From Chrysoperla carnea (Eukaryota > Arthropoda > Insecta > Neuroptera > Chrysopidae), in the NCBI RefSeq assembly GCF_905475395.1, contig NC_058338.1:2047001-2111000 (forward strand): DNA of 64,000 nucleotides, in the 5' to 3' direction. How positions within the stretch are numbered: the first letter of the stretch is position 1; each line of letters begins with the position of its first letter. The translations under genes were made by a program, and so were the position numbers. Below, in pieces: positions 24,481 to 63,682 of the stretch. The notes under the pieces are model-generated. The model ran no database searches. It worked only from the letters and a program-made list of their open reading frames with translations, and had not been told where the DNA came from.

Positions 24481-27400
24481 TTAAAGCGCCATATTTCGTC
24501 CTTCAATTGATATTTCTACAGCTCGCTTTGATTGTTTCGCTCGTTTATTATCTATAAAATTCTTCATATGTTTTTCAAATCTATTTAATTGTTTTTTACT
24601 CGTCTGCAAAAGAAAATCATTCATTATTAATAAAAAGATGATACATCGAAATGTTTAGGATTTTTTGGAAAATGAAGGAACGCTACACGAAACTGTTGTC
24701 AGTACCTAATTAAAGTAAATTGGAAAGCAACAAGTATTAATTTTGGTTCCCGTGGTAAATTCATCAGTTTTTGTGCTGAATAAACTTTTCTTTTTTTCGT
24801 GAAAATGACTTTCAAAGTTTTTTCTACTACTTTTAAAAGTGTATGATATACTTTTTTCGAAAAACGTTAAATTTTTCAGTTATTTAACGTTAAATACTCG
24901 AATCAAAATATATAATCTTTCACTTAATCTAACCACTTTGCGACACTCGTACGAAAACTGCTTTTCGATGCCATTTTTCTAATGTGGCAGCGCAAGCGAC
25001 AAGAGAATACGAGGTTACAAATTGGAAATTTGAACAGAGCGCCTGAAAATCTATAAAATCACTCATTTTTAAAATTCCCGGAAAACTTTCCAGGTAAAAC
25101 TGGATCAGATGACTATTACTAAGTGGACCATAATGATAATTGAACTAAAAATTATACTTACTCGACTAATATCAGTTTCTACAACCCATTTAGGTCGTAC
25201 CACATACTCTTTATTCGATGGCATCGGTACTCTAGCTCTGCCAATCCATCCTTTATCACCAGGTCGTAATGCTTTATCCTCTTGTGTACCGAACGCTTTT
25301 GCTAATTCTTTTTTTGTTGGTTCACTTGATGCTAAAAAAGAAAAAATTTAATATCATTAACTAAAAACAAATATCGTTAGTGTGACAACAAACTTACATC
25401 CTTCGTCATTACGACGCCGTTTTGGCATTTGTTCAATATCACGTTGTAATCGTTCTTCACGACTTAATGCTTTAAAATCAGCGGATAAATTAAATATAGG
25501 ACGTGCCCATTCATTAATTAATCGTCCAGCCCGTTCACGATTCTCCTTTGTTTCTCGCGGATGTTTATATAAGTACATAACAGCTTTACCAATACCGGAA
25601 TGTTTTAATGTTGATTGATCAACTCTTGGAAACTGTAATTAAAGAAACGAATAAAGCAATGAACTGTCGATCTTGCTGCAAATAAGACAGATCGGGATGC
25701 AGTTTTTTGGATTCGATTCGTGAGGACGTCTATAAACTTCTATCTAATGAGGGAAAAGCTGCAAATTAAATTTGTAACTCGGGATTTTTTGAGATTTGGA
25801 ATTTTACGACAATAAGTAACAAAAATCCGCAATTATCTACAAAAAAAAATACCCCTTAAAGCTCAGTTGGACGATAAATACTTAGTTTGTCAACTTTTGA
25901 CCAAAAATGGCTCGATTTTCGGAAGAGGTGACAGAATCCGTATAATCTGATATCGGATTCGTAATCATCGACCAAAAATACTTACAGGAAGAGACAATTT
26001 TAAGCCAAAATAAGCATTTTCAAACAATTTTTTAGTCATCTCTTGGGTTGGGACAGTTTTTGGGGTACATATGCCCTTCGCTGGGGCCCTATACTCCCCT
26101 ATAACTAGGTTAAGTTGGCTGAATGTTCTTTGGGAGCCCATAAACACGTTACAAGAAATTTTTCCCTACATCTCGGCTTACATTAACTGTATTAATTATT
26201 ATACAGGGTGGGTCATTTTCTTCTCTCCCCCTTTACTCACCTGTAATAATAATTTTAATATATTTTCACGTATCAATAACGATGGCATCGATCGATCAGG
26301 CATCGGTGCTAACCAATCGGTAAGAACACTTAACACATTGTGCTCAATGAATGCCAATTGTAAATCATGTTTCTTTAATTGTGACATAACTTTTGGTAAC
26401 ATTGCTATTTTTTTCGTAGCCGGTTGCATCTGTTGATTTAATTTTCGATCCTCTTCAGCCGCTGTCCGCATATCTTGTAATAATTGTGCAATAATATCAT
26501 CGTTATCGTTGATAATATCAATGTCTTTTCGTTTACGACGTCGCGTTTGCTCTGAACGTTTCTTTGCCAACATTTTATCAAAATCGGATACGCCATCATT
26601 GCCTCTGTAACAAATAATCAATTGTTTAACGCGGAGGGTTAAGACTACAGAAAGGCGTTCTAGAATGTTTGCCACATTTTTTGAACAAAGGCAAGAGATC
26701 ATCTTCAATGCTCTTAAAAGATTTGCTTACGTTAAGCACAGGCCATGCCAGCCACCTATTTTAAGTGAAAGTAGTAATCAACACTTACTCTCTATCGTCA
26801 TTTCGAACACCGTCATCAGAATCATCTGATACATCTGGCAACACTCCACTAGCAGCTGCCGCGGCACCTTCTTCAGGTACATCATCCAATTTTTCAGCTG
26901 GTGTCCCTCCTTCGTCCGCTTCATTATCGGATCCAGACGCAGCTGTCGTTTGTTTCTTTGGTTGATCTTCTTCGCCTTCTGAATCTGAAAGTATTCGTTT
27001 GCGACCACGTGATACACCAACATCTGACCTAGATCCGGATCTAGATCTAGAACGTGATTTTGAACGATTTGAAGCACGCGATTTTGATTTAGATCTTGAA
27101 CGTGATCTTGATTTTCTTGAACCAGATCGTGATCTTGATTTTCTTGAACCTGATCGCGATCGTGATTTTCTTGAACCTGATCGTGATCGTGATTTTCTTG
27201 AACCAGACCTTGATCGTGATTTTCTTGAACCAGATCGAGATCGTGATTTTCTTGAACCAGAACGTGACCGTGATTTTCTTGAACCTGATCTTGATTTTCT
27301 TGAACCAGAGCGTGACCGTGATTTTCTTGAACCTGATGCAGAACGCCTTGAACCAGATCTAGATCGTTTTGATGCTCTTGAACCCGATCTGGATCGTCTT

Positions 27401-28783
27401 GAACCAGATCTAGATCGTTTTGATGCTCTTGAACCTGATCTGGATCGTCTTGAACCAGATCTAGATCGTTTTGATGCTCTTGAACCCGATCTGGATCGCC
27501 TTGAACCTGATCTAGACCTCCTTGATCCTGATCTTGAACGTGATCCTCGTGATGCTACAGAACCTTGTTGAAATAAATAATTTAAACTTAGTGTATAAAA
27601 TTAATTAATAGATGGCAACCAACCTGAACGTGATCTTCGAGATCCAGACCTTGATCGACGAGAACCTGATCTTGAACGTCTTGAACCTGAACGTGATCTC
27701 GATCGTTGAGAGCCTGATCTGGACCGAGCTGATCCAGATCTTCGTGATCCAGACCTTGAACGACGTGAGCCTGATCTAGATCGTCTAGAACCAGATCTAG
27801 AACGGGCAGAGCCTGAACGTGAACCAGATTTAGATCGCCTTGAGCCTGACCGTGAACGTTTTGAAACATTCGAACCTGACCGTGATCTTTTTGAAGCATT
27901 CGAACCAGATCGAGAACGCTTCGAAGCATTTGAACCAGATCGCTTAGACGTTCTAGATCCAGATCTCGATCGATTTGATGCTGCTGAACCGGATCTTGAT
28001 CTTGAACGTGCCGATACATTTGATGCCCTGGATCCTGATCGCGATCTTGATTTTCGTGATACATGACTACCGGCACGTGACCGTGGCGAACCAGATCGCT
28101 TTGACGTATCTGATTTATTCGAAGTGCGTGAATTTGATCTCGATGCAGCTTTTCGTGATCCTGATGGAGATCTTGAACCAGATCCAGATCTTGAACGAGA
28201 TCGTGATCTTGACACACCATTCTGTTTTAACGATCCATTACTTTTGTTTGATTCATGTGATGATGATCTTGATCGTGCCGCTGATGATGCAGAATTATTT
28301 CGAGAGCCATTTAGTTGTTTTGGTGAAACAGAGCGTGATCTTGATCGAGAATTTCGAGCTAAAAATAATTATTACAATCCTAAAAATACAGTTTAAAATA
28401 ACGACCTCAAACAACTTAAATTTGACGGGGGTTTTTTAAATTTTGTATTTGAGTTAAGACCCAGCAACGTCGTAATTCGCCATTAAAAGCGATCGGACTG
28501 AATTTATCTTATACAAAATGTATTGATTGTGTATCAAAAACATAATATTTTAGTGAATTTTCTCGAAAATCTAGATATGTTGAAATCGTTTAAAAAATTA
28601 AAACATACCAGAATCGCCAGCAGGACTAGCCGATGGTGATCCTTTGTGATTAACAAGTTCGTCAGATGTATTTAAAGGATCTAAAAACACATCATCGATC
28701 AAATCAAATCAAATAATTGTTTAAACTTATTTATTTAATATAAATCAAATATATTGTGGTTACCTACCTTCTTCATGCTCCAT
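24481..28783 (-). CDS. Iws1: IWS1/Spn1 transcription elongation factor, 8 exons, 829 aa
   Basis: Nuclear partner of Spt6 on elongating RNA polymerase II, linking transcription to mRNA processing and export. Exons: 28783-28768, 28680-28609, 28358-27624, 27563-26789, 26604-26241, 25632-25398, 25331-25162, 24603-24481; phases agree and the total is 2490 nt. Residues about 30-450 are an Arg/Ser/Gly repeat, 455-532 are acidic, and 533 onward is the conserved half: [17 protein letters not shown], then the TFIIS N-terminal (LW) fold with [29 protein letters not shown] and [10 protein letters not shown], then [21 protein letters not shown], and a basic C-terminus. The N-terminal repeat is unlike the acidic repeats of mammalian IWS1. 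Intron 3 (27564-27623) is only 60 nt and falls inside the repeat. The first 16-nt exon is the least certain. Confidence 0.93.
27036..28235 (-). repeat. Coding tandem repeat: [18 protein letters not shown] units of IWS1
   Basis: Read on the minus strand, units of 8-10 residues such as [17 protein letters not shown] and SKRSRSGSN recur across two exons and are interrupted only by the 60-nt intron. At the DNA level 'gatcttgaacc/gatcgtgattttcttgaacc' recurs on the plus strand. The plus strand stays open for 190 codons ([11 protein letters not shown] units) purely because the repeat has no TAA/TAG complements. The product resembles an SR-type domain. Confidence 0.9.
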
Positions 28784-35587: not shown

Positions 35588-38500
35588 ATGGGTAAAAAGG
35601 TAAAAGTAAAAAAAATGGAATTAAAAGTTGGCTTACAATTTGCAAGCTATGAAGAGCTTACAGATTTTATTCATTTGTACGAAGAGGAAACCAAACAAAA
35701 ATTATGGAAACGATCGAGTCGAACATTAAAAAGTACAAAGAGATTAAAAAAACAATTTAATGAAAGAATTCAATATTATGAGATTCAATACTCTTGCATT
35801 CATGGTGGTCAACGGACTCCGTCCAAAAGTAAAGGATTGAGAAGAGTTAGGTAAATTTAACAAGTTCTTGAAAATGTTTTACCAAGCGAAATTACTTTTG
35901 GACGTTTTTTTTTTTTTTATCTAGTACTCTACGAGTGGATTGTCCATTTAATATTAAATTACGAGCAAGTGTCGATGGACAGTTTTTAGAAATTCGAGGT
36001 TGCCACGATCAACATGAAAACCATTCAGATTACGTGGTAAGTCCTAATTTTTTTTCCAAAAAAAAAACAAACATGGAATGCCAGGCCTAAGCGTTCAGCA
36101 TGCTTGCCGCCCAACCAGTGTCCTGTGATAGCCGCAACAACTTTGCGAACAGAGGCCCTTGGAAATGATATGAGAACTTCGGAACGCCTGCGATTGTACA
36201 CAGACCATATCTGTCTTGTAGTACCACAAGTACGTTCTTTCCTCCATCTAAGATTGGCATTTTTCAGAATATCCTTTTTCAGGAGTAACTTGTAGTTCGC
36301 AAATGGAACTTCCGGGTATTTATTGATGCTTGTGCCGGCAGCATCACAATTTCCTGGATGTCCCTGTATCCCGGTACCCATACCAGGTCTACATTCATTT
36401 GTTCCGCCAGCTCATTTAAGGACAGTCCTGTGCCACCTTGGCAGTCCTGTGCCACCTTTGACAGCGCCTGCACTAACATTTATAACGAATTTTTCTTATT
36501 TGTGTGCACGGAATTTTGCTTATACAATTTAATTTATTTTTTTTTTTTTTAAGAAACCACAAAAAAGTGAAAAATCGAAAGAAGAGAATTCTTCAAAGAA
36601 AAAACTGAAAACACGACCATCGAAATTAGAAAAAAAATCAAAAGCACAAAATAATGAAAGTACGAAAGCGGATGAAGTGATTAGCGTGGAGATGCTGTGT
36701 CGTTTGTGTGGAAATCGAAGTGAACATTTAATATCGATCTACGAAGATGAAGGTTTGGAGTATCAACTACAAATGAAAATCAATCGACATTTACCATTCA
36801 GAGTGGAGCGAACAGATACAAACTTACCAAGTAGATGTTGTTATCAATGCGCGAGCACGCTACTCACTTGGCATGACCTGGCAGAGATTAGTATTGAGGC
36901 GGATCGACGATTAAAAACACTATTTGGTGCTGTTGTAAGTTTTAAAAACATATCAATCACCAGTTCTTAAACTTAAAAGTACTTCACCAGGTACTAGTTT
37001 TATATTAGGCTTCTAATTTTTAAATACGAAGGCGCCTTTTTTTGTAAAAATTTGGAATCTTGTGGGGGTACCCTTTTCATATAAATTTTGTGCCCGATAC
37101 TGCGCTTGAACCGTTTGAGAACTTGTGATATAATTGACTGACTAAGTTTTTGAGGGACCTAAGAATTTTATGTGTTTTTAGACAGGAAAAAAACATTTAG
37201 AAGAATCAACACACGAAAATGTTACGGAACAAATGGAATGGGAATATTTCGAAGAAGAAAAAAATGAGAAGAAGAATTCATATAATGCTTCCACGAATAC
37301 CAAACAAGAAAGGTACGTTTACATGTGTTGCCCGAATAGCTTCTTCGAGGGGATTTCCTCTAAGATTCATGGATTCAAGGTTTCGAATCCAAACAATCTA
37401 AACTTGACGCCTTGCAGGTGCAAATAATATGTATTAAAAATTTTTTTTCAGATCTGAAGCAATTGCTTTCGTCAGCTTTTCATCATTTCACAACGCACAG
37501 AAATCTTTGTTATCCAATCAAAATATCCAACCTGCATCAGCACAGCCTATGGAATGGATTAAAACTGAAGATCATAGTGATTCGGATGATGATAGAGGTG
37601 ATATTACAGCTTCACCTTTACCACCTAGTGAAGAAGAAAGTGTTCCTCAGAAAAAAGTTTATACTTGTGACACATGTCAAGAAACATTCAAAACTTTAAA
37701 AAATTTTAAAACACACTTGGCTGAAACGTTACATAAAACACAAAGTCTACCAAAAGGACGACCTACAAACGAACCCAGGTATTATTGTGAGATTTGTGAC
37801 TATGGATTTCCTGAACGGGATCTAATGGTAGAACATCGTGCGAAAGCTCATCAAACATCAAATGAAACGGTTAAGAATGAAAATCACGAGCAAGAATCAA
37901 AATCACTTGGAGTAGAAATTAAAACTGAGGAATCTGAACATGAAACAACTGTGCCAACAACACCATCTTCAGAGGACAAAGAATTATGTAACATTTGCAA
38001 CTCATTATTTGCAATTAAACACGATTTAAAACGTCACATTCGTATACGTCATCCAGAAATCACACCAACGTTTAGCTGTGATGTTTGTTCGAAAGAATTT
38101 CCTCGAAAATATCAAATGCAAAAACATCGTAAAGAATTACATTCTGATGTTCCAGAAAAGGAGACGCTCAAACGTGGTCGAACACAACAAAATTCTGATT
38201 TATTGGCTCGATGTAAAGTTGATTATGAAGGGAAACCTCATTATCAATGTGAACATTGTCCTCGGATCATTCATAAACCGTATCAATTCCTTCGTCATTT
38301 AACTGTTCACACGGGAGTGCGAGCTTTTTTCTGTCATTTATGTGGGAAAAGTTTTCGTTTACCCAGTGGTTTAACACGACACATTAAAGAGTTACATTAT
38401 GGTGTAAAAAAATATCCATGCGATATTTGTGGACGGTGTTTTGCATCGAAAAATACTCGAGACGATCATGTAAATATTCACACTGGAGCAAGACCGTTTG

Positions 38501-38946
38501 TTTGCGATTTATGTGGGAAATGTTATAAACAAAAGGCATCGTTAAATATCCATAAAACTTTCCATACCGATGCGAAACCTCATGTCTGTACACATGAGGC
38601 TTGTGGTAAACAATTTCGGCGTGCACACGAACTCAAAGTACACGGATGGGTTCACACTGGATACAAACCGTATGCGTGCACCATGTGTGACGTAACATTT
38701 AGATTATCCCGAGGTTTAAAACGACATTTACTAAAACGGCATGGAAGTGGTAAAGATGGTCAAACGACGAATGTAACGAAACCAAGTGTTGTGAAGAAAG
38801 AAAAAAAAAGTCACGTTGAAAGTCAGCCAAAGAAAGAGGGGTCAACAAATAATGTGGTTGTGATCGATGAAGGAAGTGGAACTAGTGATACGAATCAAAT
38901 GGCTAATGAATATTTTAATTTTACGAGGAATTATTGTGGACCTTGA
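35588..38946 (+). CDS. ZSWIM3-N-like / ZAD / 10x C2H2 zinc-finger protein, 793 aa
   Basis: A likely nuclear DNA-binding regulator. Exons: 35588-35850, 35925-36036, 36554-36934, 37182-37312, 37452-38946; the phases agree and the total is 2382 nt. Residues 10-125 resemble the N-terminal domain of ZSWIM3-type or FAR1-like proteins (FASYEELTDFIHLYEEETKQ, VDCPFNIKLRASVDG). After a basic linker comes a ZAD dimerisation domain at about 175-250 (CRLCGNRSEHLISIYED, then CCYQCASTL: two CxxC pairs). An acidic region follows, then ten C2H2 fingers, for example FFCHLCGKSFRLPSGLTRHI and FVCDLCGKCYKQKASLNIHK. The start follows an out-of-frame ATG by four bases. Intron 2 contains a LINE fragment. I do not recognise a named orthologue. 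Confidence 0.85.
36064..36482 (-). mobile_element. R1-like LINE fragment (RNase H end) in an intron
   Basis: Reading minus: LSKVAQDC, LNELAEQMNVDLVWVPGYRD, then TSINKYPEVPFANYKLLLKK, then LRWRKERTCGTTRQIWSVYN and [11 protein letters not shown], cut off at the left edge. The same protein order is seen in 56785-57090 and 39180-39690. It is frameshifted and 5'-truncated. It lies in intron 2 of the ZAD zinc-finger gene. Confidence 0.7.
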
Positions 38947-38969: not shown

Positions 38970-39690
38970 TTAGGTTAGGTTAGATTAGAGTGACTGTCCT
39001 GGTGTTGGCCACATTTGGACCAAAAAGTTCGTTGTGATATCGAAAAAGGGTTCCTTCATCCTCTATGAATCATTTAGAGCGTATTTAATAGCAGGAGCTT
39101 TGTTGACAACGGACTTTATATCGAATATTTCGCCAAAGAAAAATTGGCTCAAGTGAGTCCATCTCATCATGGCAAGAGTTGGATAGTGACAAGATGAGAC
39201 ATGAACCATTTGGAGCTGTTTAAGAACAGCAAGAGGGCTTTGACGTCGACTGACTTTAAGTCGGAGAAGTCGCCAAAGAGAGGCTGGCTCAAGTAAGTCC
39301 ATGTCCTCATGACAAGAGCTGAGCAGTGACAGAGAAAATGAGACATTGTCTCCTCCTTGCCATCACTGTGACAGCTCTTGTCGTCCAGCCAGTGTCCTGT
39401 GATAGCCGCAACAACTTTGCGAACAGAGGCCCTTGGAAGTGTAGTATATCTCATATCTGTCTTGTAGTACCACAAGTACGTTCTTCCCCTCCCCCCCATC
39501 TAAGATTGGCCTTTTTCAGAATATCCTCTTTCAGGAGTAACTTGCAGTTCGCAAATGGAACTCCCAGGTATTTATTGATGCTTGTGTCCGGCAGCATTGT
39601 GCCATTTCTGACAAGCTCGCCGGCTTCACAATTTCCTGGAATGTCCCTGTGTCCCGGTACTCATACCAGGTAAATAAATAAAATGAAAAT
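38970..39690 (-). mobile_element. Two nested/duplicated R1-like LINE 3' ends
   Basis: Reading minus, 39690-39180 carries the RNase H end (GGRGRTYLWYYKTDMRYTTL, then [40 protein letters not shown]). 39180-39063 repeats the final block again (LVMRTWTYLSQ-like, then FFGEIFDIKSVVNKA). The 3' flank at 38973-38990 is TAACCTAACCTAAC-like on the minus strand. It lies immediately downstream of the ZAD zinc-finger stop codon. Confidence 0.65.
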
Positions 39691-55600: not shown

Positions 55601-58600
55601 GTTGAACCATTATTTTGGTTAAACGATCAACTTCAGCATTTAAATCGTATTCTAAAAAATAAATTATTTTTAAGTAAAAACTCTTGCATATTGATCAGGA
55701 GGAAAAAACTGGGTCTCTAGCACTTGGATCACGCAAACGGGTGCCTAGAACCTAGAACAAGGGAATCCTCTGTGTCCTTGAAAACAACCTGTCACTTCGA
55801 GTAAGAGATGCTATTTGAAGCAGTAATTCTGTCGAGGATATTAGTAACCAAGATGAGTTTCTGGTAGCCATTCCTTGTGTCGGTAAATTACGGATCATCT
55901 TGCCATGAGAATGACAAGATTCAGTTGAAAGGGGCGTGTAAGACGAACCCTTTTGTGCCAACGAATTCGTTGCTTTATTGTCTTTAACGCCAGAGTGGTC
56001 TAGTTTCCAGATCAATCAGTGGAAAAAATCGAAAAAAATCTTTATTTTGCCGAAAAAAATTTGGATCGATTTTTAACCCTTTTCCCGTTATCCAATCGAG
56101 CTGAAACTTTGCAGGCAACACCCTAGTTGAAAGTACGGTCTAATAATCGTTAAAATAAGAACCAAAATTGTCCTGGCGCTCGTTCTTAATACGTAGAAAG
56201 ATAACGACGGCTGCAAAGAACGATTTCCTCGAGGGTAGGCCACGGTCCACGTCGATCGCGAATCCGTTCAAATAAGGGGCCCATTCCTGAGCTATTTAAA
56301 TCTATAATGGGATAAATAAATAACAGAAGAATTAGAAAAGAAAAAAAAGAAAAACGAACCTATAACATCAAAGTGATTAATTTTCTCCAACATAGATTGT
56401 TTTTCATCTAATAAACATTGAATTTTATTTTCCATTTTCTTATGTTCCTTTTCATGGTTTTCATTTTGTTTCTCAAGCTCACGTATTTTATTTGTAGCAT
56501 CATTTAATTGCCGTTGTAAATTTAACATTTTTTCATTATTTTCCCGGACAGCTTTATTACAATCGGATTCAACAGCTAAAGCCATTCGATCAATTTCCAT
56601 TAATTCATTTTCCAATTGATGATTTTTCTCCGCTAAATTTACAGCATTTTTCATTGCATCATGTTGTTTCATGACTGCTTCTATCCTCCAAATATCAACA
56701 AATATTTCTTAAGATATTTTCATTTAAATTTAATAAAAAAAAATGAAATTAATCCAAAAAGAATTCCCTCTAAGTTAGGCTTCGTTTTCAGCTCAGTCTA
56801 CCTGACGTCAAAGGTAGCACAGGACTGCCGTACGTCCTTAAATGAGCTGGCGGAACGAATGAATGTAGACCTGATATGGGTACCGGGACACAGGGACTTT
56901 CCAAGAAATTGTGAAGCCGGCGAGCTTGCCAGAAATCGCACAATGCTGCCGGACACAAGCATCAATAAATACCCGGGAGTTCCATTTGCGAACTGCAAGT
57001 TACTCCTGAAAGAGGATATTCTGAAAAAGGCGAATCTTAGATGGAGGGAAGAACGTACTTGTGGTACTACAATTCCTGCACACGAGCCTTCGTCGAATCA
57101 AACACTTTTTCGATTAATTTCCCTTTTTATTTTTGCCAACTGAAAAACTAAAAATAAATAAATTTATTTAATTACCTGTTAATTTCAATTCCAATTGAAT
57201 TTTTTCATTTTCTAAATCGGTCACTTTTTTTGTTAACAATGAAATTTTTTCATCGACATCTTTATAACAACATTCCTTACTTAACGCCTGATATGGTCGT
57301 CCATTTTTTAAAAGTGTCATTAATCGTTCGATTTCATTATCTCGATTTCTTAACTAAAATGTTTAAATGTTTCGCAAATTTTTCTTTTTAAATTTAAGCG
57401 CCTTTAAAATCGCGTTGGATAAACATATTTTAATAAATTTAAAAATTGCTGAAGATATTTATGTTCGAGTTTACTTCGAGTTCTAGAGGAGTCGAGATTC
57501 CAATCGTGGATAGTCTATGAATGTTTAGAGAAACTTAATCGCATAGAACTGAATAACACAGTCAGACTGATCTGGGTACCGGGAATGAAGCAACGGATTC
57601 GAAAGAGGTCGTCTCAAACGCACCTTTTTGCCTGTCATTCCCAAGAATCAAGAAGTGCGACAAGCCAAACTATGTATAGCCACAGCTAGATCATCCGACT
57701 GTGCCTGAAAATCACTAGAGCATTGAAAGGGTGATGGAACTCTTGACTAAACTACCATCTTCATAACTTGGGGATCTCTCATAATCCCACTTGTAGGACG
57801 AATGAACCTCTATACATGTTATTTCCACCTGCAGAAAGTGCAGGGCATCAAATTTAGAATGTTTGGGTCCCGAATCTTGAATCCATCAATCCTGGGAAAA
57901 ATTCCGGCGGAGAAACAATGGAATTTCTGCTTAAAATAACATCTCTTACGCCTGGTCATGACAGAATCTTTTAGCTTCATCCGATTTTATTAGCGCTTCT
58001 TACCAGAAGACGCCTCGTCTTCGAGAGTCAGGTCGTTCTCAAGGAGGGCCCACAGAGGACTCTTCGCCTAGGTGCTAGGGACCCACTTGCGGTACCCCTC
58101 TTTTATCTTATTCTTATTATTATTACATCCTTACCGTCCGGAGGCAAAATGTCTCCAGGTAAGAGATGTTATTTTAACTGATTCACCCTGTATAATACAT
58201 TTAACTGATTTACCAAAAAAAAAAAAAAGTTTAATTAAAGTTTACTCTAAAAATTATTCAAGAAAAAAAGAAAGAAAGGAAGAATTCAAAAAAAATCGGA
58301 ATGAATATTGTGTTGTCTTAAAAAATACCTGCGCCTTAAACGATTCAATCATTTCCGATTGTAAACGATTATCGTCCTTGAGTTGAGTTACCTCAGTATT
58401 GAGATTCGCTATTTCCAATTCAGTTTGTTTGAGTAATTTCTCACATTGGCATGAGTAGTCGCGTGTACAATATTTCGTTTTCGTCATGTTACGACTTTGG
58501 CCGGACGACATATTTATAAATGCTGCTGTAAAAAAACACAAAATAACAAAATTTTTACCCGATCATTTGTGTGAAAACTGACACACTCGTGTGTCGATCG

Positions 58601-61398
58601 CCTGCTTTGTCTGACGTCTTCTGATCGCAACGTCTCACACGTGCTTTTTTTTTTGGCAAACAACAAATTAACGTCTTTTGTTTAGCACAATTTTTCTCAC
58701 ATACATTTTAGAATTTTTGGTGGGTGGGTGATGGATGGAGGATACGAACCGCTAATTTTTAAAAATCCATAAATAAGAATAATATTCAAAAAATACTCGA
58801 GCCGTACAGGAAAAACAAAATTGAAAAAAAAATACTGGTAAAGAGAATTTATAATAATGACATATTTACAAAGTTTGGCGAACGCCTACTTAATAATTTT
58901 ATTGTTCATAGTCCTGGAGCCTGTTACAGTAAAACTGCACTTACACGGATTTCGAAATTCCGTATATGCTATTTAACGATAGGTACAATATGGTCTAAAC
59001 CGTTTTAAGGAATGAATTTCGAAAAATCCTTTCTTATGCGACACCTAATGTATGAAATCAATATCTTCTCGAAATTTCAAACTTCTATCATTTGCGATTT
59101 AGACTGGGTGTCAATATATCAGTCGCGATATTGCCTATTCCTCCTCCAGGTTATTTCTCCCCTCTGAAATGTTTCTGATTTTAAATAATATACAATAAGA
59201 GTCATTTTGAAGAAAAAAAAATCATCAAAATCGGAGCTTTTATTGAGGACTCCCGAGTAAAAACCATTCTTTGATGCGACTATAAATTCAAAAGGTGATA
59301 CTTACATGTATTGGAAGTTTTTTTCATGTGACGTCTACTTAATTCACATTCTAATTTACAAACTTGTGATTTCGCTTTCGATAAATGTTGCTCTAATATT
59401 CGTATTTGATGTTTGAAATCTAGAAAAATCAAGAAAACAAATCTTTTAAAATCCATTCATTCATCATTTCACGTTGTTTCGAAACTCTATGGGACTTTAA
59501 TGCTAAAAAAAAGACTCTATCAACGATAGAAAAAAGGACTGTTAATGTTAGCTCGCCTTTTATCCGAATTTGTCTTGGGGGTCGTACATCCTTAAGTTGC
59601 CAAAAAAAAAAAATTTGAAAAAATCGCTTAAAAATAATAAATATTAAAAATGATCACTCTATGGGACTTTAATGCTAAAAAAAAACTCTATCTAGCGATA
59701 GAGAAAAGAACTATGTCTGTTAGCTCGCCTTTTATCCAAAATTGCCCTGGAGCTCATACATTCTTAAGTTGTCGAGAAATAATTTGAAAAAACCGCTTAA
59801 AAAAAATAAACATTAAAAATTATCACAGTAAGCTAGGTTTGTTATTTAAAGGAAACTCTGCAATTGAAACGAGCCTGGATCACAGTCCTGCCCCATTTTT
59901 CGAGCTAAATACTGGACTAAAAGACATGTTCAATCTTTTCGATAAATAAATGTAAAAATAAAAATACTTGCTTCTTTGAATTTGGTCATTTTGTTCAGTA
60001 GCTTTCATTAATTGTAAATTTAAGTTATTATTTTCATTTAATAATTTTGCATTATCACATTTATAGGGTTCCACGCCATATTGGAAGTCATTGTACTCCT
60101 AAAAAAATGTAAACAAATATAATTGTAATTGTGGTGTTATATGACATAAATACGGAAGCCTGAATGTCTCAATAGCTATTGACACATTCAGGCTTCCGTA
60201 TGATATATCACATAAATAAGTTAAAAATTTTATATTGCCTTAATTTAGGAGCCAGGTTACATCAAAAATGGAAAAATTATATACAGGGTGTTCTATTATT
60301 GATAGCAGAAAATTATACCAGTAAATTGAGCTTATCAAGACAAATGGAAAAGCTCTTTACCAAATTTCGATCTGAGGCCTAATTCGAGAGATGTGACTGT
60401 GGGAAAAATAAATCAAACTCAATAAACGAAGTACGTGTCACTTTAGAATATAGAGGGGATTATCATAAAACAATAGTTGATTGTAAATTGATGTCTAAAC
60501 GACGAGAAACCGTTTTCCCTGAGAACCAGGTACCTCTGAGACCAATTCTGTCACAATAATAGTGTTTAGCGACCTTAAAAACCCCCCGAGTAACAAATTT
60601 GGAATCATTTTCATCCCTATTAACGGTCAATTTAAAATGCAATTATAAAATGCATATTAATTATGATAATTGCATATTTTTAATTTCTTATAAATCAGAC
60701 GATCACAAAATTTCCTGACGCTCTAACAAATCGCATGCCGAAAACCGCATTCAAATCCGACTTAATGATCAAATTTTTCAAACTTTGATCATTTTTTGTG
60801 CTTCTTTTCTTCGTCTAAATAATTCATCAACCACGAAAGTAAAATTGCAAAATTCATGGAAACTATATCAGAATTGACGTGCTCAAAAAATTATGAGCCT
60901 CACTTCGTTGGACTTTATAGTTAAGTATTTATGAGGCCTAATGTTTATGAAAACAAGCTAATGATTTCCCACGCAGTCTACAAGGAAATTAAGTCCTACA
61001 TCAACGAAAATCATCGTATTAAATGCAAAAGGATCATGAAAAATTACAGGAAAAAACTTATTGTGCCATGAAAACCTTCTGGGAGCGGGGTGGGAGTAAC
61101 TTCATCTGATATATTATTTCATACATAACCCTAATTCTGAATTAGTTTACAACTTATAATTAAAAACTTGTATTTTCTACCGAAATTAATTATTACGTTA
61201 ATTTTGGAACAATCTTTATTGAATTTTTCGAACCTTTTCTAGTTGTTCACAAAGTTGTTTATAATGTTTTAAACTTTTGGTTGTATGAACTAAATCTGAT
61301 AAAATTTTATCAACTAATGGTACAGCGTCTCTTGGTAAATCTTGATTATATCCAAGACTTACTAAATGTTGTTTTAAAACACTTGTTTTATGATCCAT
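49633..61398 (-). CDS. Cep135: Cep135/Bld10 centriole protein, 18 exons, 1090 aa
   Basis: Coiled-coil scaffold of the centriole cartwheel and basal body. Exons: 61398-61234, 60098-59972, 59419-59306, 58525-58329, 57353-57176, 56674-56360, 55651-55353, 54841-54737, 54213-54049, 53873-53781, 53235-53006, 52945-52735, 52603-52362, 52301-52148, 51767-51570, 51507-51352, 50653-50451, 49753-49633; phases agree, total 3273 nt. Matches to the family: LGYNQDLPRDAVPLVDKILS with SDLVHTT, VEPYKCDNAKL, NEIERLMTLLKNGRPYQALS, NLAEKNHQLENELMEIDRMA and GYICEVSRIEDLLDQK. Length fits (human about 1140). Exon 2 seems to end at a GC donor. Exon 7 adds a cysteine-rich stretch. An in-frame ATG four codons upstream (61410) could be the start. 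Introns carry many LINE and MITE pieces. Confidence 0.92.
49821..50055. mobile_element. Foldback MITE in the last Cep135 intron
   Basis: The ends 'aaaggtgcattttcatgatg' and 'catcatgaaaatgtaccttt' are complements, and 'gagtttgagcgtcaaattag' pairs with 'ctaatttgacgctcaaactc'. An inner palindrome surrounds 'agctaaacaatgtttagct'. It sits 68 bp upstream, in transcription order, of the last coding exon. Confidence 0.75.
50140..50350 (+). repeat. Dispersed repeat family C, copy 3
   Basis: Blocks 'gaaatttacaaaatttaaaa', 'aaacccccgac', 'tctctattaaattacctttc', 'aggagctacgatgccacaga' and 'gtcgggggtt' match the other copies. It is in the last Cep135 intron, opposite to the gene. Confidence 0.6.
53345..53680 (+). 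mobile_element. CCHC-tail LINE fragment in a Cep135 intron
   Basis: Blocks such as 'cttcataatttggatatttc', 'ctgataatcccatttgtaga', 'atccatcaatcctgggaaaa' and 'catctcgccttctgatgaca' match 57730-58030 nearly in order. Coding frames are broken. Confidence 0.55.
54238..54564. mobile_element. ACAGGG foldback element in a Cep135 intron
   Basis: Left 'tacagggagttttttttaac' with 'ttgacatatacttgaaactc'; right 'gagtttcaaacatatgtcaa' and 'cacccgta'-type end CACCCTGTA. An (AGA)n run interrupts the right arm. It belongs to the family at 23311 and 7975. Confidence 0.65.
54956..55198 (+). repeat. Dispersed repeat family C, copy 4
   Basis: A near-complete copy: 'gaaatttacaaaattttaaa', 'cgtacgaaacactaaactcg', 'acactctccattaaattacc', 'taggcgctacgatgccacag' with CAGA units, and 'cccttttttggttcaggg'. 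It is in the intron between Cep135 exons 7 and 8. Confidence 0.6.
55690..56020 (-). mobile_element. CCHC-tail LINE fragment in a Cep135 intron
   Basis: Reading minus, WKLDHSGVKDNKATNSLAQK marks the RNase H end, followed by blocks shared with 18790-19330. It is broken by frameshifts. It lies just 5', in plus coordinates 3', of exon 7. Confidence 0.55.
56785..57090 (+). mobile_element. R1-like LINE RNase H fragment
   Basis: Frame SLNELAERMNVDLIWVPGHR, then NCEAGELARNRTMLPDTSIN, then NLRWREERTCGTT. This is the best preserved copy of the family at 36064 and 39180. WVPGHRD with the downstream GELARN is the RNase H active-site end. The fragment is truncated on both sides. It lies in the Cep135 intron between exons 5 and 6. 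Confidence 0.75.
57500..58110 (+). mobile_element. Longest CCHC-tail LINE 3' fragment
   Basis: It runs from 'caatcgtggatagtctatga' (start of the RNase H end), 'gactgatctgggtaccggga', through the tail region to 'ggtgctagggacccacttgc'. It gives the order of blocks that other fragments share, including a near-terminal 'gaagacgcctcgtcttcgag' hairpin. Coding frames are broken. Confidence 0.6.
58916..58996. mobile_element. Half copy of the GGAGCCCGTCACAG palindrome
   Basis: 'ggagcctgttacagtaaaac', 'tgcacttacacggatttcga' and 'aacgataggtacaatatggt' match the left half of 24192-24378. The right half is missing. Confidence 0.55.
59486..59825. repeat. Two-copy 170-bp tandem duplication in a Cep135 intron
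   Basis: 'ctctatgggactttaatgct' begins each copy (about 59486 and 59656). Both continue with 'tgttagctcgccttttatcc', a 'cttaagttg' block and a 'aaccgcttaaaa' end. The copies differ by scattered changes, so the duplication is not recent. Confidence 0.8.
60151..60200. repeat. Short perfect hairpin TACGGAAGCCTGAATGT
   Basis: Two 17-base arms that are exact complements flank a 16-base loop. The arm sequence also occurs at the inner edge of the giant foldback element ('cattcaggcttccgtac' at 34738). It may be a minimal remnant of that family. Confidence 0.75.
60480..60820 (-). repeat. Dispersed copy of the Sec13-intron repeat
   Basis: Reversed, it reads 'ggtcgctaaacactattatt', 'gtctcagaggtacctggttc' and 'aaacggtttctcgtcgttta', as in the Sec13 intron at 31345-31430. 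The flank 60700-60815 matches 31200-31320 ('gaagaaacgaagcacaaaat' region). It lies in the first intron of Cep135. Confidence 0.7.
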
Positions 61399-61991
61399 TA
61401 TTGCACACATTGGCACTCGAACGATTTATTGCTAAGTAAAATTACATTCTTAAAAAAGTTGCAAAAAAATATTTATTTATTTTGAATAGAAAACTTATTT
61501 GTTTACAAACATTTTTTATTTGAAAACTGTACAGAGAGATTAGGAAATAATGATGTGAGTACTAAAATAACATGGAGAATAAATAAATGAATAATATTTT
61601 GTCATGTTTTAAAATTTCAATCAGTTAATATCACTCAGTACTTAAACCGTTAATTAACAGCTGCTGTTTGGAAAAAATAATAATGGCTGATGTTTGACTA
61701 CAGACTTTAAATATATATAAAAATAGACTGATAATGTAGACTGCCATTTATGATGGAGAGAAAATAAATATTCCTTCTTTAAAAAGAAACGTGTGTTTGA
61801 ACCAAAGAATAATTTCAATTCTATTATCCGTTATTTTCAAATGGCAGGACGGCCTAAAACGACCACTTGACCTATTTGACATTTTGTTTTTTAAATTTTC
61901 TTCTAGGCTTCAAGTCCAGACCTTTTATATAAGCAAAACATAATTTATTCTTTATTTATAATAAATAATTTACACATTTAGAAATAGAAAT

Positions 61992-63102
61992 TTATTTTTT
62001 TCGAGATAAACATAATAAATCATTAAAACTACTGCAAGCCGAAATACTTCGAGGTCGTAAATGATCAATACTTTTATTGTGTTGGAGTAAACCAATGTTC
62101 GACGATGTACATGCGAAGCCACCAGAATCAGGACTTGATCCTAAATTTGATAAAGATTGAGTCGATGATGAACGATTTTTTTCTGCACTTTTTAATTCAT
62201 CGGCAATTTGCCGCAGTTCTTTACCTAAACAAGAAAGACTGGTCTTAATTCAATATCGACGTCAAACGCTGCCATTCATAATGCTAAAAATAAATGTCAT
62301 AGTATGTATCAGAGTTGGCAGCCATCAGTTCATACTGTCGTGAGAAGCTATAGTTATAGCTCGTCTAACTTGCTCGAGTAACTTGAGCGTTGAACCTGTC
62401 GTAACATTGTTTTTCACGAAAATCAAGAATAAAAATGACTTCATGTTTTGGCTAGACTTTCTTTATTATATCAATAATTGCCTGTCAATTTTTGGAAAGT
62501 CATTAAATAGCATTTTCTTCATAATAATCTTAACAATTCAAAAAAAAATGAAATGAATTTTACCTAATTGATGCCAATCAGTTGCTAAAGGTCCAATATC
62601 AGATGATCGTCGATTATAACGTGATGTATTTGAAAATTGTACTAACGATATTGAATGAAATTTTTCATTTTCTTCATCTTTTTCACTTAAATCGATGGAT
62701 TCACATGACGATGGCATTGTTTGAGTACCAATTGTTCGAGTTACAGCACATTTTAAAAGTTTACTTGTATTCGAATTTGAATAATTTGTATTTAAAACTG
62801 GTAAACTGCCTGTAAAAAAAATTACAGGGTGTATCACGTGATACTAAAATTTAGTTTACACTATCATTTCAATATTGCCATTGAATTTGTATCCTACGAC
62901 TTTTTAAGCTTTTATCACACTTACCTGATAAATTAGCTGAATTATGTAAACTTTTATGTTGCCATCGAATTGCTCTTGGTGGTCGACATGCTAAACGCGA
63001 TGTTATCATCGAATTATCAACGATCCATGGTGATAAACATTCATTTGATATTGGTTCACATCGTTCAGATTGTTGTAACTTTTGTGAAGAAGATGAAGCC
63101 AT
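61992..63102 (-). CDS. Unknown 218-aa protein with BH3 and LC8-docking motifs
   Basis: I do not recognise a named orthologue. Exons: 63102-62925, 62809-62564, 62224-61992; all GT-AG, phases agree, total 657 nt. The protein (start MASSSSQKLQQSERCEP) is Ser/Asn-rich and looks disordered, with no signal peptide or membrane segment; it ends FNDLLCLSRKK. Residues 84-92 read RTIGTQTMP, a TQT-type dynein light chain (LC8) site. Residues 137-154 read DWHQLGKELRQIADELKS, which fits the BH3 pattern at every position: L141, L145, I148, small A149, D150, E151, L152. The order (LC8 site, then BH3) is that of vertebrate BIM and BMF. The BH3 codons are joined by the second splice, within Gly142. Inference: a BH3-only-type regulator of Bcl-2 proteins at mitochondria. 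Alternative: a disordered scaffold in which the motif is chance. The exon structure is more certain than the function. It lies 594 bp upstream of the Cep135 start on the same strand. Confidence 0.75.
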
Positions 63103-63183: not shown

Positions 63184-63682
63184 ATACAGAGTGGATCATT
63201 TTAATTTATTATGGCTAATAACTTGTTCAGTAGCTAAACAATAAAAAAACAACTTGAGCAAAAGGTTGCTTTAATAGTCAATTAAGATCCTAGAAGGTAA
63301 GAGATAGAAGAACACTTTAAGTTAGAAAGTTGATCCACATAAAAAATCTAACATTTTTTTTCGAAAATCATTAGCTTTCGGAGGAAATGCGACTTAAAAA
63401 TTTGTCATTATGTTGCATTTAATCGAAAGAAAATACGTTAGCTATAGAAAATTGTTAGTTTTTTTATGAGTAACAACTTTTTAATTTAAAGTGTTCTTCT
63501 ATCTCTTACCTTTTAGGTTTTAAATTGACTGTTCACGTAATCGGGAGAACAAGATATTCAATCTAATGTCAGAACATGATATCCCCCATCAAATTTTATA
63601 ACTTTTGTTTAAGTTATTTTTGGATTTTTTAACTACAAAACGAATTATTAGCCATAATAGATTAAAATGGTCCACCCTGTAT
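63184..63682. mobile_element. 500-bp foldback MITE upstream of the BH3-motif gene
   Basis: The left 'tacagagtggatcattttaa', 'tttattatggctaata' pairs with the right 'tattagccataatagattaa' and 'aatggtccaccctgta'. The pairing continues inward ('gtaagagatagaagaacact' with 'agtgttcttctatctcttac'). It shares inner sequence with 3203-4530. Its nearer end is about 80 bp from the start codon of the unknown gene, so it may affect that promoter. Confidence 0.75.

Follow-up and report, generated by a model that had tools for sequence, protein, structure and literature searches.

A three-exon gene next to Cep135 in Chrysoperla carnea is predicted to encode a 218-amino-acid protein whose BH3-like core compares well with the cores of real BH3 proteins, and we regard this gene as a good but unproven candidate for an insect BH3-only death protein. 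Our preferred reading, to which we give a probability of a little under one half (about 0.47), is that an amphipathic helix makes the protein a BH3-only-type regulator of the insect Bok-like Bcl-2 proteins, whose groove it would bind, and that the protein may be held on the dynein light chain LC8 through a second motif. The gene lies near one end of the window, by which we mean the whole stretch of 64,000 nucleotides that was analysed.

Results

The gene model, assembled from open reading frames and splice sites, occupies positions 63102-61992 of the minus strand. Exon 1 (62925..63102) opens with the start codon at 63102-63100 and carries codons 1-59 and the first base of codon 60; it is followed by a GT-AG intron of 115 nt (62810..62924) with the donor CAG/GTAAGT. 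Exon 2 (62564..62809) encodes a TQT motif and the part of the BH3-like stretch from residue 137 to residue 141, and the second GT-AG intron, of 339 nt (62225..62563), splits the Gly142 codon inside that stretch. Exon 3 (61992..62224) ends with the stop codon TAA (61994-61992). The BH3-like stretch is consequently encoded in two minus-strand parts, 62564..62579 (D137 to L141 and the first base of G142) and 62187..62224 (the remainder of G142 to S154), and the initial annotation was right that residues 137-154 are made by joining exons 2 and 3, both introns and the length of 218 residues being reproduced. In mammalian Bok, the BH3 is likewise split between two exons (PMC8998228). Both acceptors are preceded by T-rich tracts, and on a crude splice consensus score the one at 62224 ranks first. 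Two AATAAA polyadenylation-type signals (61944..61956, minus strand) stand 36 and 43 nt past the stop, and five more follow downstream to 61220, AATAAA being common in the local AT-rich DNA.

A codon-usage score derived from 15 ORFs elsewhere in the window, and expressed in bits per codon, favors the proposed frame in each exon: 0.303 for exon 1, whose two alternative forward frames give -0.66 and -1.32, 0.238 for exon 2 and 0.244 for exon 3, both with negative values in their alternative forward frames. In ten-codon bins, the signal of exon 2 is +0.41 up to 62568 and falls to -0.24 past that point, which supports the donor at 62563; slightly negative bins occur once earlier in exon 2 (-0.06) and once in exon 3 (-0.05). 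That the model is wrong, with the exons not joined or the locus a pseudogene or noncoding, must be weighed, since the model comes from the sequence alone, since, of 143 control ORFs from the rest of the window, a set that may include true exons, 2 match or exceed the codon score of the spliced CDS, and since another donor, at 62704, outscores that at 62563 on the crude consensus. Moreover, the frame of exon 2 continued into intron 2 meets a stop after GKIHFIFF, so that an unspliced form would be devoid of the BH3-like motif. Against this reading, the three exons are in consistent phase and each scores best in its own frame among the forward frames, the coding signal ends at the proposed donor, and AATAAA signals lie shortly past the stop. 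We consider such an error very improbable; as predicted from its sequence, the three-exon minus-strand gene is a real protein-coding gene. The frame of exon 3 itself continues without a stop over eight codons of intron 2 (62225-62249), reading ...SCLG, and this frame alone contains L-G-K-E-L, a coincidence with the TTAG/GTAAA found at both splice sites.

The neighboring gene was identified through its first coding exon (61225..61398, minus strand), which matches PDB 5fcm, 'Basal body protein' (E 6.7e-07), and 9qzc, 'Centrosomal protein, putative' (E 0.0034). We take 5fcm to be Bld10p, the Cep135 orthologue. About 590 nt separate the stop of the 218-residue gene from the beginning of Cep135/Bld10, which lies downstream on the same strand, and we considered that the three exons might be extra 5' exons of Cep135. 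This was dismissed: we read the two as separate genes because a stop codon closes exon 3 and the Cep135 frame opens with its own start at 61398. On the other side of the candidate, two nested pairs of inverted repeats at 63184-63682, with arms of 93 nt (84%) and 81 nt (83%), form a foldback or MITE-like element that could affect the promoter, since it begins upstream of the gene, 82 nt from the start codon.

Residues 137-154 read DWHQLGKELRQIADELKS, with the core LGKELRQIADEL. As first noted, L141, L145, I148, L152, A149 and D150 all stand at BH3 positions, so the core has the four hydrophobic positions and the L-x3-[GAS]-D pattern, and it also has an acid right after the Asp. We scored it with a 12-column matrix made from 11 "classic" BH3 cores, our own choice from Table 1 of PMC9171138. 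The core reaches 20.7 bits, within the leave-one-out range of the 11 classic cores (13.0-24.5); BIM (24.5) and PUMA (21.9) stand above it and the other nine, from 20.6 to 13.0, below. The candidate is slightly favored here, because its matrix held 11 sequences and that of each known core held 10. A second 12-column matrix was made from 30 of the 35 BH3 sequences of the same table, leaving out CASP8, HEBP2, MOAP1 and TPT1, which do not have 12 residues, and BCLXS, which is identical to BCLXL; here the core scores 18.5 and 5 of the 30 known cores are higher. In the window itself, the core ranks first among 58,936 six-frame 12-mers (20.7 against 14.5 for the next best). No score as high was found in an E. 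coli decoy set of 174 long ORFs (58,368 aa, mostly real proteins, from four 50-kb stretches of K-12), the best being 13.8, and the tail counts of this set were 0.9-1.4 times the random ones at thresholds of 0-12. Judged on its sequence, the BH3 core is unusually good, as good as real BH3 cores.

BH3-like patterns arise by chance, as was cautioned at the outset. With the 11-core model, 1 of 39,999,560 random positions reaches 20.7, or 0.17 per proteome of 6.75 million residues, and with the 30-core model 6 in 40 million reach the score of the candidate, or about 1.0 per proteome of that size. Longer models, built from BH3 peptides, are less favorable: about 0.7 chance matches per 6.75-million-residue proteome are expected with 13 columns, about 4-5 with 17 and about 37-62 with 21. 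In the 21-column model, which comprises 11 peptides, 9 of the 11 known motifs outscore the candidate when each is left out in turn, and 28 of 20,000 shuffles of the 218-residue protein reach its score. Support for a BH3 falls as more flank is counted, the flanks being unlike those of vertebrate BH3s. In favor of a BH3, a HMMER profile of 11 BH3s gives E 5.9e-06 when searched against this single protein. The expected numbers of chance matches lend weight to the main rival explanation, namely, that the gene is real and its likeness to a BH3 is due to chance, the segment being a short amphipathic helix of a disordered scaffold or adaptor with another use, such as forming a weak coiled coil, nuclear export or binding another partner. 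As a short linear motif of degenerate sequence, the BH3 yields many false positives under permissive definitions (PMC9171138, PMC10107002), up to one equally good core per proteome is expected even without the flanks, and the motif was picked out of a scan of unknown size. On the other hand, the core outscores 9 of the 11 classic BH3s, and we think a chance likeness quite possible though not our first choice.

The flanks also decide the fate of the gap-free alignment with PUMA that had been put forward for W138 and G142. G142 is in register, but W138 is not: the Trp is three residues ahead of the first hydrophobic position in the candidate and four in PUMA (WAREIG versus DWHQLG), and phmmer inserts a one-residue gap. 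A 28-mer of the segment retrieved nine PDB sequences at E values up to 10, none of them significant. The best match is a designed coiled coil (E 0.44), as the chance explanation would have it, followed by the dF3 peptide (0.45), which we take to be a designed BH3-type ligand, and by two PUMA BH3 peptides (0.79 and 0.91); none of the other five is a BH3 peptide by name. With the whole protein as query, three PDB sequences matched (E 0.79-6.4); two are mitochondrial seryl-tRNA synthetase, and we dismissed all three as chance matches. In Pfam, the 218-residue protein has no domain and no match to the Bcl-2 family at E values up to 10, its sole match, to a WXG100-like model (E 0.3), being likewise dismissed. 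The BH3-only models (Bclx_interact, BMF and PUMA) match neither the whole protein nor a 31-residue piece, which gives weak matches to two unrelated models (E 0.047 and 0.06). However, these models are narrow and a weak test, because the peptide of BMF itself fails to match Bclx_interact.

Outside the core, the protein fits its earlier description as short, Ser-rich and otherwise unrecognized, with 43 Ser among 218 residues and no Pfam domain. It has several basophilic Ser sites and no hydrophobic tail or stretch of membrane-anchor grade, the most hydrophobic 19 residues averaging 0.47 on the Kyte-Doolittle scale. The helical hydrophobic moment, computed over 201 windows along the protein, peaks at residues 138-155. 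AlphaFold was given the contiguous exon 3 reading frame as a single sequence, with the 8 intron-coded residues in front, rather than the spliced protein. For this frame alone, it returned a mean pLDDT of 60, with 16 residues at pLDDT >= 90, and the sole confident helix (2-29) lies over the BH3-like segment; a helix at 75-83 and the remainder are of low confidence. This agreement between the segment and the one confident helix argues against a chance likeness, and the protein as a whole is probably largely disordered.

Upstream of the helix, residues 84-91 (62715..62738, minus strand) read RTIGTQTM, with TQT at 88-90, a sequence pattern of the LC8/DYNLL-docking type. TQT is the center of many such motifs (PMC3078936, PMC5746249), and here TQT is matched but position -3 is I rather than the classical K/R. 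In 100,000 shuffles of the protein, TQT occurred in 2.4%, the four-hydrophobic BH3 pattern in 0.45% and both in 0.009%. The rarity of the pair speaks against chance as the source of the BH3 likeness, although this figure overstates the weight of TQT because TQT was spotted after the fact.

A search for relatives of the 218-residue protein gave 58 pattern matches in bacterial and archaeal contigs and 2 in viral contigs, none of which was confirmed. A control with the conserved Sec13 exon of the window was also empty in the viral contigs (4 pattern matches, 0 confirmed), and the absence of relatives there consequently means nothing.

Several features elsewhere in the window deserve mention. Long SR-repeat ORFs with SRSGSR units (26788-28368, minus strand) lie upstream of a TFIIS-like ORF at 25360-25638 (Pfam Med26, E 5.6e-13), and together they look like a gene with an expanded repeat, presumably of the IWS1 type. 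At 36533-38943 (plus strand), a zf-AD ORF (E 1.8e-11) is followed by a 502-residue C2H2 zinc-finger ORF, possibly as one gene; the zf-AD domain is chiefly an arthropod one, and this gene content points to an insect. The ORF at 36028-36411 (minus strand) shares the peptide ANLRWR.ERTCGTT with that at 56637-57140 (plus strand), which has a weak RNase H match (E 0.0025), and shares PRASVRKVVAAITGHWL with that at 39170-39499 (minus strand); the three look like remnants of one family of non-LTR retroelements. Nothing was found when the window was scanned against Rfam and for tRNAs.

Discussion

In worms and vertebrates, BH3-only proteins act as the sensors through which stress triggers mitochondrial apoptosis. 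Insects had been believed almost to lack such proteins. Among the matches listed from open-licence full-text literature, the present gene is unreported and sayonara is the only insect BH3-only gene. The passages concerned in PMC8998228 state that some Ecdysozoa have BH3-only proteins and that none was identified in D. melanogaster, and a survey of the silkworm relates that no BH3-only protein was found in Bombyx or had been reported in insects by 2010 (PMC3091752); no insect BH3-only gene is named in the parts of PMC8336254 and PMC13303787 that were matched. Sayonara (CG14044) is described as a Drosophila BH3-only protein that interacts with Buffy and Debcl and belongs to the coiled-coil family PTHR21974, its motif, printed as LAYNLGVIGDARK, being inferred only in Muscomorpha flies (PMC10107002). 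It shares with the candidate an insect origin and a BH3-type motif, but the first 12 residues of its motif score 4.4 and 6.7, compared with 20.7 and 18.5 for the candidate core. We dismissed the candidate as a sayonara orthologue, since the motif and the described architecture, on which the comparison was made, both differ. Two coiled-coil domains as in sayonara/PTHR21974 are unlikely in a protein with 43 Ser among its 218 residues.

Further parallels to the candidate are found in BH3-only proteins of other animals. In Bim and Bmf, the LC8 motif is N-terminal of the BH3, and the sequence of the candidate has a TQT-type LC8 pattern N-terminal of its BH3 core as well. Bim shares 6 of the 12 core residues with the candidate and Bmf 4; PUMA (BBC3) shares 6 (IGAQLRRMADDL versus LGKELRQIADEL), as do BAX and BAD. 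The likeness to Bim and Bmf nevertheless falls short of demonstrating homology, the candidate having no match to the Bclx_interact or BMF models, no hydrophobic C-terminal segment and unlike flanks, and PUMA differs from it by the Trp that is one residue out of register and by a Pfam model without a match. The nematode BH3-only protein EGL-1 also has a BH3 motif, and its peptide is among the 11 of the 21-column model. LC8 is bound by two BH3-only proteins, Bim (BCL2L11) and Bmf (PMC3078936), and the BMF protein and its LC8 motif are reported not to be found beyond vertebrates in the section of PMC5746249 that deals with them.

We propose that residues 138-155 would form a BH3-type amphipathic helix that enters the hydrophobic groove of one or more insect Bok-like Bcl-2 proteins of the Buffy/Debcl type, with L141, L145, I148 and L152 facing the groove and D150 making the usual salt bridge. 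The protein may thereby regulate apoptosis, or the coupling of caspases and autophagy as reported for sayonara. The upstream TQT might dock on the LC8 dynein light chain, which, by analogy with Bim and Bmf, could tether the protein to the cytoskeleton, from which it would be freed under stress. The proposal of a BH3-only regulator inherited from the initial annotation is thus partly supported, by the quality of the core and by the shortness, Ser richness and lack of any other domain in the protein, and weakened by the flanks, including W138, and by the rate at which such cores occur by chance. The yield of such predictions also counts against it: in one study, 38% of predicted human BH3-like peptides on the last array gave a candidate array interaction, and of 34 peptides that were array-positive and exceeded the score cut-off, 22 bound with KD < 1 µM, with few strong signals when full-length proteins were used (PMC4072508).

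Alternatively, the helix would bind a Bcl-2 groove without the protein being a killer, and the protein might act in autophagy, trafficking or another pathway, like Beclin-1 or TCTP, perhaps as an LC8-bound cytoskeletal adaptor. Some proteins that act in processes other than apoptosis carry BH3 motifs (PMC9171138, Table 1), and the TQT motif, the several basophilic Ser sites and the lack of a stretch fit for a membrane anchor would agree with such a role; on the other side, nothing positive points to any other pathway, and Pfam recognizes no other domain. We hold this variant to be quite improbable, and we retain the BH3-only-type regulator as the preferred reading. A bolder extension of the preferred reading, which strikes us as unlikely but worth stating, is that the candidate would be a Bim/Bmf-type, LC8-tethered BH3-only protein in an insect, that arthropods would accordingly have kept, or evolved anew with the same layout of two motifs, a stress-sensing arm upstream in the Bcl-2 system that was believed lost, and that a protein of this type may be the target of "Bim" antibodies in lepidopteran cells. 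In Sf9 cells, Bim immunoblots and co-precipitation with Bax have been obtained with commercial antibodies, in passages of PMC4626866 that name no insect Bim gene.

If the preferred reading is true, this gene, with its textbook BH3 core, would give the insect Bcl-2 proteins an upstream ligand, and their debated role would become directly testable. It would also be the kind of gene to seek behind the Bim-like immunoreactivity reported for Sf9 cells (PMC4626866).
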